From assembly GCA_021841025.1 (NCBI GenBank), contig JAKBWA010000104.1, positions 23,311 to 87,310 of the forward strand: a stretch of 64,000 nucleotides of DNA. Reading direction: 5' to 3'. A program made the translations under genes and the position numbers. Below, in pieces: positions 13,913-20,918 of this stretch. Below the pieces are notes generated by a model. That model searched no databases. It was given only the letters and a program-made list of their open reading frames with translations, and was not told the DNA's origin. How positions within the stretch are numbered: the first letter of the stretch is position 1; each line of letters opens with the position of its first letter. Source of the DNA: Bacillota bacterium. Lineage in GTDB: Bacteria; Bacillota; Sulfobacillia; Sulfobacillales; Sulfobacillaceae.

Positions 13913-13942
13913 TTGACACGCGCGTTGGCCCATGCGTATAGT
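13913..13942 (+). promoter_or_regulatory. Candidate sigma-A promoter: TTGACA-18-TATAGT
   Basis: TTGACA at 13913-13918 and TATAGT at 13937-13942, about 20 bp before the M-box 5' end. Confidence 0.65.
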
Positions 13943-13960
13943 TATATTGTCGATGAAATC

Positions 13961-14126
13961 AAGTCCTCGTTAGGCGAGGCGTCTGCATCAATATAGGCCA
14001 CTGCTCCGACCCGTCCAAAGACGCTAAGGAGTAGACCAGAGGTTGCCGGATTAAGGCTTCTTCGAATGTGGCTGAATCTGTAAAGATTCTTACGTGATGC
14101 AGTGCCAAAGCTCCACAAGGGGGGAT
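13961..14126 (+). ncRNA. M-box (ykoK) magnesium riboswitch aptamer
   Basis: Sequence signatures CTCGTTAGGCGAGGC, CACTGCTCCGACCCGTCCAAAGACGCTAAGGAGTAGACC and CAGTGCCAAAGCTCCAC match the conserved M-box blocks in order. Confidence 0.88.
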
Positions 14127-14280
14127 CTCGTGTTTAGTAACGTGGTCCTCTTGCTGGAGTGCAAGAGGACCAAATTTATGTAACCCAAAAGTTGAGGAGG
14201 GTGAATCGGGTGAGCACAGACCCAGGAGGCCATAGTAGACGCTTATTGCCTTCGCAACAAATTCATAAATTACTGAGCTC

Positions 14281-14345
14281 TTCCGAGGGCTGTCCTTAGC
14301 TTTTGCTCTGCCCCCCCTCGGAAGATGCCGAGGGGGGTTTAAACG
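14281..14345 (+). promoter_or_regulatory. Candidate riboswitch expression platform with SD-sequestering hairpin
   Basis: CCCCCCTCGG (14312-14321) pairs with CCGAGGGGGG (14328-14337). The GAGGGGGG arm is the only SD-like sequence before ATG 14346. Competing pairing: TTCCGAGGG (14281-14289) with CCCTCGGAA (14315-14323). Confidence 0.6.
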
Positions 14346-15689
14346 ATGTCGAAGAAAATGGCCTATCAAGCCACTTCAGTCTGGGACGATGCCCGGATCC
14401 GGGCAGAGGATCAAGCGCGTATTGCTGCATTGCGTCAATCACCTAGCTGGCTCAAAAGAGTTTTGTTATTGCTGACACTAATCGGACCGGGAATTTTGGT
14501 TATGATTGCCGATAATGATGCCGGTGGTGTCATTACTTATGCCGAAACGGGTGCTAGCTACGGGATTGGGTTTTTCGTGCCGGCTTTGGTTATTGGCGGT
14601 ATCATTGCTTTCATTGTCCAAGAGATGACCGTACGACTCGGAGCAGTCACCCGAAGAGGCCATGCGGAAATGATCTGGGGCCGGTATGGTGCCTTTTGGG
14701 GATGGTTTTCGCTGATCGATTTGGTTGTAGCCAATATTCTTACCCTGATTACTGAATTCATCGGAATTACGGTGGGCATGTCGGTGTTCGGCGTGCCGCC
14801 TATTCTTAGTGCAGCGGGTGCTTTAGTATTGGATGCGGGTATTCTTTTAGTCTTGCGCTACCGCTCCTGGGAGCGAGTGTCACTGTGGATTGCATGTGGC
14901 AATTTGGTGTTCATTCCCTTGGCATTGATGGCACACCCCAACTGGGGGAACGTTGCGGCAGCATTCGGCCGATGGCAAATTCCTGGGGGGTTTGGACCGG
15001 TTTTTCTCTTTGTGGTATTGGCGAACTTTGGGACGACCATTGCTCCCTGGATGTTGTTTTTCCAACAGTCTTCCGTTGTAGACAAAGGGCTTACCGTTCA
15101 AGATATCCGGCACGGTCAGCTCGATACAGCTTTGGGAGCTTTGGCCATGGTGATTGTGGGAGTGGCTCTGGTAACGTTAACCGGAACTTTGGCTTATGGA
15201 CACCCGGGAGCCTCTAACTACAACATTCAGCAAATTATGCAACTGATTGGAGCCCGCTTGGGTACAACAGGCGAAGACTTGTTCGCCCTCGGTCTTGTGG
15301 AGGCTGGCACCATTGCGGCGATTGCGCTGACCGCCAGCACGTCCTGGGCTATGGGAGAAGCTTTCCATTGGCCCAAGAGTATTAATCTTCCCGTAAGGCA
15401 AGCATGGCGGTTTTATGTCCCGGGGCTCTTAAGCGCGGCCATTGCTGCGGGCGTTGTGCTTATCCCCAATGCGCCGCTGGGCTTTCTCAACTTAACCGTA
15501 CAGGTTATCGCATCCATTTTCATGCCGGCAGCGTTGTTGTTTTTGCTGCTATTGCTTAATGACCGAGAGATTATGGGACAGTTTGTCAACCGGAAGTGGC
15601 AGAACGTTATGGCATATGTCATTGTTGGCCTGCTTGTGGTACTCAATGGACTCTACGGCGTTTCGGTGGTGTTTCCGCGATTGTTTTAG
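14346..15689 (+). CDS. NRAMP-related divalent metal transporter, probable NRMT-type Mg2+ transporter
   Basis: GPGILVMIADNDAGG replaces the canonical DPGN; TM6 TTIAPWMLFFQQ replaces the MPH motif; M-box upstream. Confidence 0.85.
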   Translation: MSKKMAYQATSVWDDARIRAEDQARIAALRQSPSWLKRVLLLLTLIGPGILVMIADNDAGGVITYAETGASYGIGFFVPALVIGGIIAFIVQEMTVRLGAVTRRGHAEMIWGRYGAFWGWFSLIDLVVANILTLITEFIGITVGMSVFGVPPILSAAGALVLDAGILLVLRYRSWERVSLWIACGNLVFIPLALMAHPNWGNVAAAFGRWQIPGGFGPVFLFVVLANFGTTIAPWMLFFQQSSVVDKGLTVQDIRHGQLDTALGALAMVIVGVALVTLTGTLAYGHPGASNYNIQQIMQLIGARLGTTGEDLFALGLVEAGTIAAIALTASTSWAMGEAFHWPKSINLPVRQAWRFYVPGLLSAAIAAGVVLIPNAPLGFLNLTVQVIASIFMPAALLFLLLLLNDREIMGQFVNRKWQNVMAYVIVGLLVVLNGLYGVSVVFPRLF

Positions 15690-16023: not shown

Positions 16024-16099
16024 CCGTCTAAAGCAAGGAGCAAAAGAGAAAAAAGGAGGAGAAGACGGAACAAATGAATCAAGAAGAACCTTCAATGTG

Positions 16100-16140
16100 A
16101 ACCCTGGTCGGGAACGCAACATATTCTCGACCAGGGTTTT
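16100..16140 (+). terminator. Rho-independent terminator
   Basis: CCCTGGTCG (16102-16110)/CGACCAGGG (16128-16136) followed by TTTT. Confidence 0.8.
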
Positions 16141-16721
16141 AACAGTTTCTTAAAACTTTACCTATGAGTATCCATAGTTGTATAATTATGGTATGGAGCG
16201 AAAACTTGTTGGCATTCGAAAAGCTGCAGAATTTTTAGGAGTTACGCCCTCGACATTACGTCGATAGGAGCATGAAGGCAAGCTGGTACCCGATGAACGC
16301 ACGGCGGGTGGGTATTGGCGTTACGACTTGGCCCGGTTGCGGCCTGAGCAGTTTCAGCGACTTAGCCTTCCTCGCAAAACCGTGGCCTATGCGCGGGTGT
16401 CGAGTCATGACCAGAAAGACGATCTTGACCGGCAAAAGCAAGTGCTAGAGCTCTATTGTGCCCGCCAAGGCTGAACGTTTGAGGTGGTCGCAGACCTGGG
16501 GTCGGGGATGAACTACCACAAAAAAGGTCTCAAACGACTCTTGAATGACATCTTGGCCGACCGAGTCGGTCGGCTGGTAGTAACCCATAAAGATCGTTTG
16601 CTACGTTTTGGAGCGGAGCTTGTTTTTGCCATCTGTGAAGCCAAACACGTCGAAGTCTTGATTCTCAATCAGGGCGAGGATACGACTTTTGAGGAAGAAC
16701 TGGCTCAGGATGTCTTGGAAA

Positions 16722-17888
16722 CATACATCCCCGGATAGCTCAGGGAGTAGGGACAGCATAATAAATCGTAAGCAAAACCACAGACGTTTGTGGCGATTGT
16801 CATACATGTATACTAAGCATCCCAAAAAACCGTGCGACTAAGGTACCCCCTCCTGCTTCGGTCGGGCGTTGGCCGTGCTCGATTCTGTTATCTCCGGCTA
16901 CGTCCCATAGGGATGAGCCGCAGATTCCACGCAGGCGATCAATAATCGGGAAGCGATGCCGGTCTTCATATGACGACGATTGAAGCGATAAACGAATTCT
17001 TCGAGGTATAGTTGACGGCGGGCGCGTCCGCGCCCGTGATAGGTCCCATCAATGAATGTTTTGGCGAGACTAATAACCGTGTTCACCCAGTGAAAGACGA
17101 CCGGCGCCTCCGGATCGTCGCTGAGGGTGACTTCATGATCGGCCTCATGAGCATGGGCTCCCGCAGCATAGACAGGCGCACCGTCGCTACGCCACACGCC
17201 TTGGTGTTCTACGCGACGCTCGAGGACATCCAGGACGGTGTCTTTCTTCAGGTCTGGCACGGCGTCCAGAAAGATATGGCGTGGGTGCCCTTGGCTATTG
17301 AGACTCACACCCACGACGACCGGATCTTGATCGGTACCCCGGCCCCGTTTCCCCGCCCCATGGCTGACGCCACCGAAATAGGCATCATCCAGTTCCACCA
17401 GTCCGCCCAGTTGATAGCGAGCATTACGGTCCTTCATGGCCTGTTGAATTTTATGGTGCAAGAGCCAGGCGGTATCGTACCGTAGTCCTAATTCGCGACT
17501 AAGCGCCATGGCGGACTTGCCTCCTTTATCGACGGCGATCAGGAAAATGGCCATAAACCACACACGCAGGGACACTTTGGTGCGATGGAAGACGGTACCA
17601 GCCGTAACAGACGCTTGATGGCCACAGGCCTGGCATTCATAGAGGGGCGCGGTCCGGCCGGACCGCTGAATCGTCCAGAAAGTCTTACCTTGACACTGAG
17701 GACAGACAAATCCGGTTGGCCAACGCTGCTGGAATAAGTATTCCTGGCACGCATTTTCCGTTGCAAATTGATCTTGCCATTCTAACAATGTCATCCGTGC
17801 TACCTCCCACCTGCAACCTTAATTTACCTGAATTGTACCACGTTCCCTCCACTTGGGGATCTCTACCTGAGTTATCCGGGGATGTATG
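16722..17888 (-). mobile_element. IS1595-family insertion sequence, 1167 bp
   Basis: Terminal inverted repeats CATACATCCCCGGATAGCTCAGG/CATACATCCCCGGATAACTCAGG; perfect 8-bp direct repeat CTTGGAAA at 16714-16721 and 17889-17896. Confidence 0.93.
16898..17794 (-). CDS. IS1595-family DDE transposase
   Basis: N-terminal zinc ribbon CPQCQ...CQACG, AGTVFHRTKVSLRVWFMAIFLI, LDDAYFGG, C-terminal YRFNRR. Confidence 0.92.
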   Translation of the reverse strand: MTLLEWQDQFATENACQEYLFQQRWPTGFVCPQCQGKTFWTIQRSGRTAPLYECQACGHQASVTAGTVFHRTKVSLRVWFMAIFLIAVDKGGKSAMALSRELGLRYDTAWLLHHKIQQAMKDRNARYQLGGLVELDDAYFGGVSHGAGKRGRGTDQDPVVVGVSLNSQGHPRHIFLDAVPDLKKDTVLDVLERRVEHQGVWRSDGAPVYAAGAHAHEADHEVTLSDDPEAPVVFHWVNTVISLAKTFIDGTYHGRGRARRQLYLEEFVYRFNRRHMKTGIASRLLIACVESAAHPYGT

Positions 17889-17993: not shown

Positions 17994-19184
17994 ATGATTC
18001 TGGCCCATAAGATTGCGCTCGAACCGAATAACGTTCAAGAGACCTATTTTCGCAAGGCTGCGGGGACTGCGCGGTTTGCCTACAACTGGGCGTTGGCCCA
18101 ATGGCAACGACAATATGAGGCCTGGAAAGCAGATCCAACTGGGGTTAAACCTTCCGATCCGGCATTGCGTAAGCAACTCAATGCCATCAAAAGAGACCAG
18201 TTTCCCTGGATGCTGGAGGTGACCAAGAACGCCCCACAGATAGCCATTATCCACTTAGGAGAATCCTTCAAAAACTTCTTCGAGGGACGTGCCGAGTATC
18301 CTACGTTTAAGAAAAAGGGCCGTCACGATAGTTTTTCGTTAAGTAACGACCAATTCACAGTCAAAGGGCAGAAAGTGCATATTCCGAAACTCGGATGGGT
18401 CCGGATGCACGAATCGTTACGCTTTGTCGGGAAAGTACTGGAGGGCACGATCTCCAGGACCGCTGACCGATGGTTTTTCAGCGTCACCGTTGAGATTCCA
18501 GATCCTCCCGGTATCCTCCGTGAAAACCAAACGGTGGGTGGGGTGGATTTGGGCGTGTCGGCGTTGGCGACACTCTCCACCGGCGAGAAAATTGTGGGGC
18601 CGAAAGCCTATGCTGTGGCGTTGAAGAAACTCCGCCAGTTATCGAAACACTTCAGTCGGCAGATGGAGGCCGCCAAAGTGCGTGCCGGGCTGGAGCCCGG
18701 CGAACCCATTCCAAAAGGAATGCACGTCTCCTGGTCAAAGAATATGCGGAAAACCCAACAGCGCATTGCCCGACTTCATGCCCAGATTGCGAATATTCGG
18801 GCCGATGCTTTGCACCAACTTACGACCTATCTGGTCAACCTTTTCGATGTCATCGCCATCGAGGATTTGAACGTCGCCGGTATGCTCAAAAACCATAAGC
18901 TGGCTAGGGCGATTGCCGACAGGGGCTTTGGGGAATTTCGCCGTCAGTTAGAATATAAGGCGGTCCAACACGGCAAAACAGTTATCGTGGTGAACCGTTG
19001 GTATCCCAGTAGCAAAATCTGTTCCACGTGTGGGTACAAGGTTTCGAAAATGCCCTTAAGTATGCGGGCATGGACGTGCCCGCAGTGTCAGGCCTATCAT
19101 GACCGCGACATCAACGCGGCGATCAATTTACGGACAGCGGCCGAGAGTTCGATGGGTTTTAGCTGCCCATCCGTTCCTGCCTGA
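17994..19184 (+). CDS. tnpB: TnpB (IS607-associated RNA-guided nuclease family), intact ORF
   Basis: RuvC motifs GVDLGV, IEDLNV and DRDINAAINL plus CSTCG..CPQC zinc finger; ATGA overlap with the tnpA end. Confidence 0.93.
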   Translation: MILAHKIALEPNNVQETYFRKAAGTARFAYNWALAQWQRQYEAWKADPTGVKPSDPALRKQLNAIKRDQFPWMLEVTKNAPQIAIIHLGESFKNFFEGRAEYPTFKKKGRHDSFSLSNDQFTVKGQKVHIPKLGWVRMHESLRFVGKVLEGTISRTADRWFFSVTVEIPDPPGILRENQTVGGVDLGVSALATLSTGEKIVGPKAYAVALKKLRQLSKHFSRQMEAAKVRAGLEPGEPIPKGMHVSWSKNMRKTQQRIARLHAQIANIRADALHQLTTYLVNLFDVIAIEDLNVAGMLKNHKLARAIADRGFGEFRRQLEYKAVQHGKTVIVVNRWYPSSKICSTCGYKVSKMPLSMRAWTCPQCQAYHDRDINAAINLRTAAESSMGFSCPSVPA

Positions 19185-19694: not shown

Positions 19695-20918
19695 ATGAAT
19701 TGGCTGCATTCGCCTTTCTATCACCGAGGTGAGCGTGCACACTGGCAGTGGCTTAGAATTTTTGGCCCTGGAATCCTGGTTATGTTAGCGGATACCGATG
19801 CGGGGAGTATTGTAACCGCTGCCCAATCGGGAGCCAAGTATGGCACTCGGTTGGTCATACCCGATATTTTTCTGATTGTCGTATTGTACCTGGTCCAGGA
19901 AATGACGGTGCGGCTAGGCTTGGTCACGGGTTTGGGCCAGGGCGCATTAATCCGGAAATATTTTGGACGGATGTGGGCAGCTCTGGTGGTGTTAATACTT
20001 TACATGATTTGCATCGCAGCCTTAGTTACCGAATACGCAGGAATTGCCACCGTGGGGCAAATGGCGGGGATAGGGAAGTGGTGGGCTGTTCTTATGAGTC
20101 AAGCGGCTTTGATCGGCGCGGCATTTTTGGGAAAATACCGACGCGTCGAACGTCTTGGTATTATGTTAGGACTCTTGGAGGTCATCTTCATTCCTGCTGC
20201 CGTGTGGGAAGTGATGCAGGGACCCAAAGTATTGGCGAACTTGTGGAGTCTGCCGCTAGACCAGACTCATTTCGCTTGGATGGTTGCGGCCAATGTAGGT
20301 GCCGTAATTATGCCCTGGATGATTTTTTTTCAGCAGCAGGCGGTTCACGACCGCCACCTAGGGCTGAGGCATCTGAAAATAGCTCGACATGATACTCTTG
20401 TTGGTGCTATTTTAACCCAAAGTGTGATGGTCGCAGTGATGATGACCGCAGCCGCTGTATTTCCCCATCACGCAACATTAACTTCGGTGGCTTCACTCGC
20501 ATTGACGTTGGTCCCACTATTAGGGCGAGGAGCCGTGATAATCTTCGGAGCAGGGCTATTAGGGGCTAGTTTAGTGGCCGCATTAGTTGTGTCTTTGGCG
20601 GGGGCATGGGGTTTGGCCGAAGTCTTTGACTGGAAACATAGTTTAAATTCCAGCTTTCGCGACACTCCTATGTTTCACCTCGTCTACGCCTTATCCCATG
20701 TTATTGCCGTGGGGATCGTGTTAACGACCACAGCTTACGTGTCTTTAAGCATCACGGTGGAAGTGATGAATGCCGTAGTGCTGCCGCTGATTCTCGTCTT
20801 CTTAATCATTTTGGAATACCGGGCATTGCCTCATTTTTGGAGAATGAGCAAAAACCGCCGAATTACGGTCATTGCGCTTAGTGCTCTAGTCGTTGTGTTC
20901 GCTCTGGTGACACTCTAA
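19695..20918 (+). CDS. NRAMP-family divalent metal transporter, divergent metal site
   Basis: GPGILVMLADTDAGSIVTAAQSGA and GAVIMPWMIFFQQ; SD AGGAG before ATG. Confidence 0.87.
   Translation: MNWLHSPFYHRGERAHWQWLRIFGPGILVMLADTDAGSIVTAAQSGAKYGTRLVIPDIFLIVVLYLVQEMTVRLGLVTGLGQGALIRKYFGRMWAALVVLILYMICIAALVTEYAGIATVGQMAGIGKWWAVLMSQAALIGAAFLGKYRRVERLGIMLGLLEVIFIPAAVWEVMQGPKVLANLWSLPLDQTHFAWMVAANVGAVIMPWMIFFQQQAVHDRHLGLRHLKIARHDTLVGAILTQSVMVAVMMTAAAVFPHHATLTSVASLALTLVPLLGRGAVIIFGAGLLGASLVAALVVSLAGAWGLAEVFDWKHSLNSSFRDTPMFHLVYALSHVIAVGIVLTTTAYVSLSITVEVMNAVVLPLILVFLIILEYRALPHFWRMSKNRRITVIALSALVVVFALVTL

Follow-up and report, generated by a model that had tools for sequence, protein, structure and literature searches.

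M-box riboswitches in front of NrmT genes, which encode NRAMP-related magnesium transporters (NRMTs), were already reported in 2014 by Shin et al. (PMC4072509), and the residue signature DxxG-TxxA/T of the NRMTs was given by Ramanadane et al. in 2022 (PMC8806188). Short translated leaders in front of Mg2+ transporter genes are known from other systems. In the account of PMC11282234, citing Chadani 2017, low Mg2+ causes the ribosome to drop off at the EPDP sequence of MgtL, and mgtA is switched on; EttA dependence required at least DPEE (PMC11282234). MgtQ is an ORF of eight codons with an AGGAGG sequence, Asp2 and Glu5, and here competing stems bare the ribosome binding site of mgtB (PMC8092293). 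In Mycobacterium tuberculosis the pe20 M-box is followed by a conserved small ORF (uORF Rv1805A) and then by the main gene; that M-box acts at the level of translation, together with Rho, and its uORF is believed to encode a functional protein (PMC12810186). Finally, MgtS is a small transmembrane protein that stabilises MgtA and that was found bound to GkApcT, a transporter with a LeuT fold (PMC5803215).

The locus described here lies in a 64,000-nucleotide stretch of bacterial contig that was analysed as a whole (the window). Its nearest named relative was Sulfobacillus benefaciens, found beside Bacillota MAGs at 92-93% identity, and the host appears to be a Sulfobacillus-like acidophile. As a pairing of M-box and NRMT gene the locus is a further example of something already known. 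What sets it apart from the known pairs is a leader peptide stacked behind the riboswitch and an obligately linked small partner; the conserved leader ORF and the linked small membrane protein had both been overlooked in the first-pass annotation of this DNA and are the new content of the present work. The features are collected in Table 1. Taking all of them together, we consider it quite likely that the locus encodes a two-gene Mg2+ importer that is induced by Mg2+ starvation and governed by two stacked cis-controls.

Table 1. Features of the nrmT locus, with positions in the window.
Feature	Position	Strand	Basis or remark
Sigma-70-type promoter TTGACA-18-TATAGT	13913..13942	+	TTGACA at 13913, TATAGT at 13937, spacer 18; consensus match only
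M-box magnesium riboswitch aptamer (RF00380)	13959..14130	+	cmscan; kept at nrmT in relatives
Predicted antiterminator: GGGGGGATC (14119-14127, P1 3' strand) with GGTCCTCTT (14144-14152)	14119..14152	+	Duplex -10.1 kcal/mol; function inferred
M-box terminator hairpin (GGTCCTCTTGC / GCAAGAGGACC)	14144..14171	+	Weak U-tract here; most relatives have a strong one
Shine-Dalgarno GGAGG of leader ORF	14196..14200	+	Nine bases 5' of start
Leader ORF, GTG start, 29 aa (MSTDPGGHSRRLLPSQQIHKLLSSSEGCP, begins MSTDPGGHSRR), putative acidic-proline leader peptide	14210..14299	+	Codon conservation, enrichment, kept without M-box
Strand A, within 3' end (last codons) of leader ORF (CTTCCGAGGG)	14280..14289	+	Pairs with B
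Strand B (CCCCCCTCGGAAG)	14312..14324	+	Pairs with A or C
Strand C (CCGAGGGGGG), contains nrmT Shine-Dalgarno	14328..14337	+	Pairs with B
nrmT, encoding a 447-aa NRAMP-related magnesium transporter (NRMT)	14346..15689	+	Pfam, residues, tree, fold
Conserved nrmT partner gene, encoding a single-TM protein of 59 aa	15844..16023	+	tblastn, profile search, neighbourhood
Putative intrinsic terminator at the end of the unit (AACCCTGGTCG...CGACCAGGGTTTT)	16100..16141	+	Read by eye

With cmscan the aptamer matched RF00380 over the full length of the model (1-169 of 169), and its score of 138.3 bits (E = 4.4e-31) is well above the gathering score of 44. This bears out the M-box that the first-pass annotation had placed at 13961-14126, and the promoter that it had named was likewise found in front. 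The copy at nrmT is the sole M-box of the 3.39 Mb assembly. Alternative terminator and antiterminator pairings were found in the window, though its U-tract is weak, and 38 of 41 M-box loci had a terminator-like hairpin with a T-run 3' of the aptamer. The locus shares with the M-box (ykoK) family its full-length aptamer, antiterminator and terminator-like platform, but differs in that an apparently translation-based second module with a leader ORF of its own comes after it.

M-boxes were called with cmscan, a regex scan having overlooked many true ones. Among the family's 34 genomes 23 carried an M-box, one each and every one at the nrmT locus; none was found away from nrmT in these genomes, nor was there a second one serving the neighbouring NRAMP gene at 19695. 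The M-box was also present in Alicyclobacillaceae and in one actinomycete MAG. At the close NRMT relatives from Acidithiobacillus, SZUA-79-type bacteria and archaeal MAGs the signature was not found by regex, three of these loci being examined by cmscan as well. It had been suggested beforehand that the locus would extend the association of NRMT and M-box to an acidophile. This is right but modest, as the pair occurs across Sulfobacillia and Alicyclobacillaceae. In the literature searched (open-licence papers) nothing on point was found on a Mg2+ riboswitch of Sulfobacillus.

Between the M-box terminator and nrmT sits the leader ORF. Over 33 grouped loci its start codon was GTG in 22, ATG in 9 and TTG in 2; the codon for Asp4 was GAC in 24 and GAT in 8, all four codons were used for Pro5, and the Gly codons varied. 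Conservation was limited to the first 8 residues, with DPGGH as the conserved block, and the C-terminal part varied freely in sequence and length while the frame stayed open through indels. Because of the synonymous changes, the exchanges of start codon and the open frame with its free C-terminal part, we read this pattern as that of a translated cis-acting leader rather than of an RNA element. Ser was nearly always encoded by AGT at codons 2 and 7-9 of the leader ORFs of several clades (e.g. GACAGTAGC, CATAGTAG), which suggests an added constraint at the nucleotide level.

Comparable leaders were found in more distant company, other phyla included. They begin with MRSEPDSS in SZUA-79-type loci, where each of the four Pro codons is likewise used, with MDSHP or MDSDP in Acidithiobacillus, with MDSDPGSRR, MESGPS and similar sequences in Alicyclobacillaceae, with MSDEPPNW and MTDVPPKR in two Thermoplasmata MAGs, and with MPDDSPYRKRR in a class-level relative. 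Using one fixed motif, a Shine-Dalgarno-led acidic-proline ORF was detected in 40 of 80 nrmT leaders; in front of neighbouring genes it appeared in 6 of 195 leaders, and after shuffling in 35 of 1600. The motif was set only once the leaders had been inspected, and the loci share ancestry, so that this enrichment is strong but is not independent evidence. Some nrmT leaders of Acidithiobacillus, Acidiphilium and Micrarchaeota showed no such ORF, and none was found in front of distant NRMTs (30-37% identity, L148-L165), so that the leader is restricted to the clade of the window NRMT. Four genomes without an M-box retain the leader ORF directly behind a promoter, which argues that it is an independent regulatory unit.

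Before nrmT, strand B can pair either with A, in the last codons of the leader ORF, or with C, so that the stems A:B and B:C compete. The A:B pairing energy was -20.8 to -23.9 kcal/mol. Complementarity of A and B exceeded both composition-shuffled and synonymous-codon nulls (Fisher combined p ~1e-12 over 28 loci, which are related, so that the combined value overstates their independence), and it was weak in several loci (L007, L013, L014, L036). In 22 of the 28 loci at least 3 nt of the nrmT Shine-Dalgarno were paired, by many differing stem sequences. Because the hairpins shift register, a covariation count on a MAFFT alignment of the A/B/C region was not used, and the variation of the stems was taken from the fold of each locus. 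Leaders of the MgtL/MgtQ type use competing stem-loops to control either the Shine-Dalgarno or the terminator of the transporter gene; the predicted stems here take in the nrmT Shine-Dalgarno, and from the distances a ribosome at the leader stop codon would be expected to cover A, leaving B free to pair with C. In L010, L020, L025 and L035 (Alicyclobacillaceae and relatives) the leader ORF overruns the nrmT start in another frame; a different coupling design is likely at these loci, and the stem logic cannot therefore be identical there.

We propose that the two layers would act in series. When Mg2+ is ample, the M-box would fold and hold the P1 3' strand, and the terminator hairpin would end transcription; at low Mg2+ the P1 3' strand would instead pair with the 5' arm of the terminator and transcription would proceed. 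The transcript would then present the 29-codon leader ORF with its acidic-proline N-terminus. A ribosome that finishes the leader would cover A, so that B:C pairs and the nrmT Shine-Dalgarno is hidden, and a ribosome that drops off early, as proposed at low Mg2+ by analogy with MgtL and MgtQ, would let A:B pair and nrmT be translated. The products would be a Mg2+ importer of the NRMT type that lacks the proton-coupling histidines, together with its 59-aa single-span partner.

With MgtL and MgtQ the locus shares a short, Shine-Dalgarno-led acidic-proline ORF in front of a Mg2+ transporter gene and competing stem-loops, and at mgtQ-mgtB the Shine-Dalgarno of the transporter gene is hidden in a stem, as predicted for nrmT in the window (PMC8092293). 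By this analogy the leader is probably a low-Mg2+, ribosome-dropping attenuator and forms a second, translation-based control. The differences are that the transporter is an NRMT here and a P-type ATPase there, that the phyla are far from Enterobacteria, and that the leader here stands behind an M-box. In addition, MgtL has EPDP and MgtQ has Asp2, Pro4 and Glu5, whereas the window leader has a single early acidic residue, in Asp4-Pro5, and here the analogy is weakest; its relatives have more (MDSDP, MRSEPD, MPDDSP, MSDEPP). The nearest precedent with an M-box is the pe20 leader with its uORF, in the same order of elements, but its working is different: here a terminator hairpin and, as we read it, a cis-acting leader take the place of translational control with Rho and a functional small protein (PMC12810186).

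The single acidic residue, and a conserved block that is DPGGH and not an acidic run, would also fit a real control peptide that answers to another signal, such as slow decoding of Asp-Pro/Gly/Ser, EF-P or ABC-F activity or the supply of aminoacyl-tRNA, or that does no more than couple translation to the nrmT Shine-Dalgarno. The Mg2+-transporter leaders of Salmonella, too, respond also to Pro-tRNA and ATP (PMC8092293). We regard this explanation as possible but rather unlikely, because the unrelated leaders MRSEPDSS, MDSDP, MSDEPP and MPDDSP at nrmT all keep acidic-proline starts, which points back to the theme shared with MgtL and MgtQ at Mg2+ transporters.

The nrmT product matched the Pfam family Nramp (PF01566) with 202 bits. 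Its closest solved structure by sequence was EleNRMT (PDB 7qia, E = 3e-57), the best MntH reaching E = 7e-16. Residues D58, G61, E137, T230, A233 and Q386 align to D55, G58, E133, T224, A227 and Q379 of EleNRMT. The retained D58, Gly61 and Ala233 pointed out in the first-pass annotation thus hold on this alignment; with T230 added they make up the complete DxxG-TxxA signature in place of DxxN-AxxM, and the two TM6b histidines that couple protons in MntH are replaced by W235 and Q240. In a maximum-likelihood tree, which included EleNRMT but not C. acetobutylicum NrmT and in which the EleNRMT and MntH rows stood on long branches, a split with 100/100 support set the protein apart from ScaDMT and DraNramp, and it lay far from the canonical MntH among which it might have been placed. 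It fell in a supported acidophile clade, with EleNRMT and other Firmicute NRMTs as the sister clade. An AlphaFold2 model (pLDDT 80) gave 7qji and 7qia as its top matches in a fold search, with TM scores of 0.78 and 0.86, EleNRMT being the best. Two CorA genes and no MgtE were found in the genome.

The window protein shares the DxxG-TxxA site and the loss of the TM6b histidines with C. acetobutylicum NrmT and EleNRMT, and it shares the upstream M-box with the former. It differs from EleNRMT in belonging to a separate clade and in the leader ORF at its locus, and from the NrmT/NRMT group in that no MgtE-N-type gene was noticed beside it in the window. Sequence, residues, tree and riboswitch all give good support to an NRMT-type importer, of the Mg2+ class, under M-box control, and to this extent the earlier reading of a Mg2+ importer under a Mg2+-sensing RNA stands. 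The DxxG-TxxA motif alone is no proof of Mg2+ specificity, because an NrmT-group protein of Acidobacterium capsulatum behaved mainly like a Mn2+ transporter (PMC4072509). Still, given the metal site, the placement in the tree, the EleNRMT-like fold and the presence of two CorA without MgtE, transport of Mg2+ by the window NRMT is likely.

A transporter mainly for Mn2+, or for divalent ions broadly, with the M-box reporting general divalent status, is in our view unlikely. The A. capsulatum NrmT did rescue Mn2+ transport better than Mg2+ transport (PMC4072509), and EcoDMT with an NRMT-like site still took up Mn2+ and not Mg2+ (PMC8806188). Against this, the window protein has the complete site and has lost both histidines, EleNRMT is its nearest solved structure by sequence and by fold, conservation of the M-box extends across Sulfobacillia and Alicyclobacillaceae, and the soft Met is retained in a second, neighbouring NRAMP (19695-20918).

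For the leader ORF, a small protein acting in trans under M-box control, as proposed for Rv1805A, has the M-box and uORF of M. tuberculosis as a precedent (PMC12810186). It is nevertheless very improbable here, as conservation stops after the first 8 residues, with sequence and length free beyond them, and the 3' end of the ORF belongs to the competing stems. Least credible of all is an untranslated structured RNA element at 14196-14240: nucleotide identity is locally high, GGGTGAGYACAGACCC can form a short hairpin and AGT is favoured at Ser codons, but the synonymous Asp/Pro/Gly changes, the GTG/ATG/TTG swaps, the proper Shine-Dalgarno spacing and a frame kept open through indels speak for translation, and no Rfam family matched above chance in 14120-14400.

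Behind nrmT lies the gene of a 59-aa protein with one hydrophobic span (FWGLRIYIVAMLVLVIIGF). It was detected by tblastn at 68 of 82 loci and by profile at the 14 others with enough sequence, and thus at every locus of the clade with readable downstream sequence. Its range covers Firmicutes, an actinomycete, Acidithiobacillus, Acidiphilium, SZUA-79-type bacteria and MAGs of Thermoplasmata and Micrarchaeota, although the archaeal assignments may include mis-binned contigs. Among the neighbours at 22 diverse nrmT loci it alone was conserved, in 21 of them. In 81 whole genomes the profile gave 69 matches, all 69 directly behind an NRAMP-family gene, strong after nrmT and weak where the gene belonged to a sister group of NRAMPs with the site DAPS...ATxTPW. 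Behind each of four members of this NRAMP-like sister group (L168, L169, L140, L197; DAPS, ATxTPW) lay a divergent version of the small TM protein. Beside the homologues on the EleNRMT side, in contrast, the small protein was absent. No match was found in Pfam or NCBIfam at E up to 10, nor in PDB sequences at better than E = 0.2, and a search of open-licence papers brought up nothing on point on an accessory subunit of NRAMP transporters.

The simplest reading of this linkage is that the 59-aa protein is a dedicated partner subunit of the NRMT, with which it would form a physical complex. MgtS bound to GkApcT provides a precedent for a helix of this kind packing against a transporter of this fold (PMC5803215). 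MgtS and the 59-aa protein have in common that they are single-span small proteins tied to Mg2+ transport, a likeness for which we make no claim of homology; the 59-aa gene differs in being the dedicated neighbour of an NRAMP-family transporter gene.

More tentatively, the pattern may be general: acidophile NRMTs could be two-subunit importers whose acidic-proline leaders sense low Mg2+ through ribosome instability, in bacteria and some archaea, with an M-box stacked in front in Firmicutes. If the proposed reading of the locus is true, two Mg2+ sensors of differing physical kind, an RNA fold and the stability of the ribosome, stand in series at one locus. Mg2+ sensing by an unstable nascent chain, which in the literature found is described only from enterobacteria, would then operate at unrelated transporters in different phyla, perhaps archaeal ones among them. 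The 59-aa protein would be the first candidate accessory subunit for the NRMT family, and M-box, leader ORF and small partner would together mark a clade of Mg2+ transporters that automatic annotation would label MntH-like.

Some further observations were made downstream and elsewhere. A micro-ORF encoding MNQEEPSM, again acidic-proline in character, lies at 16074-16100, 3' of an AGGAGG sequence and just 5' of the terminator, with MNQEPSR and MDREPPPR at the same place in the close relatives L002 and L003. As it was present only in the window and these two relatives, it was excluded from the proposal. The second NRAMP-family gene, at 19695-20918, has the site DTDAGS and AVIMPW, i.e. DxxS-AxxM, and is preceded by a palindrome (GAGAACGAATGTCATTCTC) that resembles a Fur box and is also found in L003. 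In relatives this gene lies closely 3' of nrmT; in the window two transposase-like ORFs intervene, at 16898-17794 on the minus strand and at 17994-19184 on the plus strand, the latter TnpB-like by eye. An NRAMP paralogue seen in the genome search (G000:C92:16633-17865) has one in-frame TGA, and the same was found in G006. In two relatives a selenocysteine tRNA (RF01852) was located near the nrmT locus (L092, 3460-3550; L093, 775-865).
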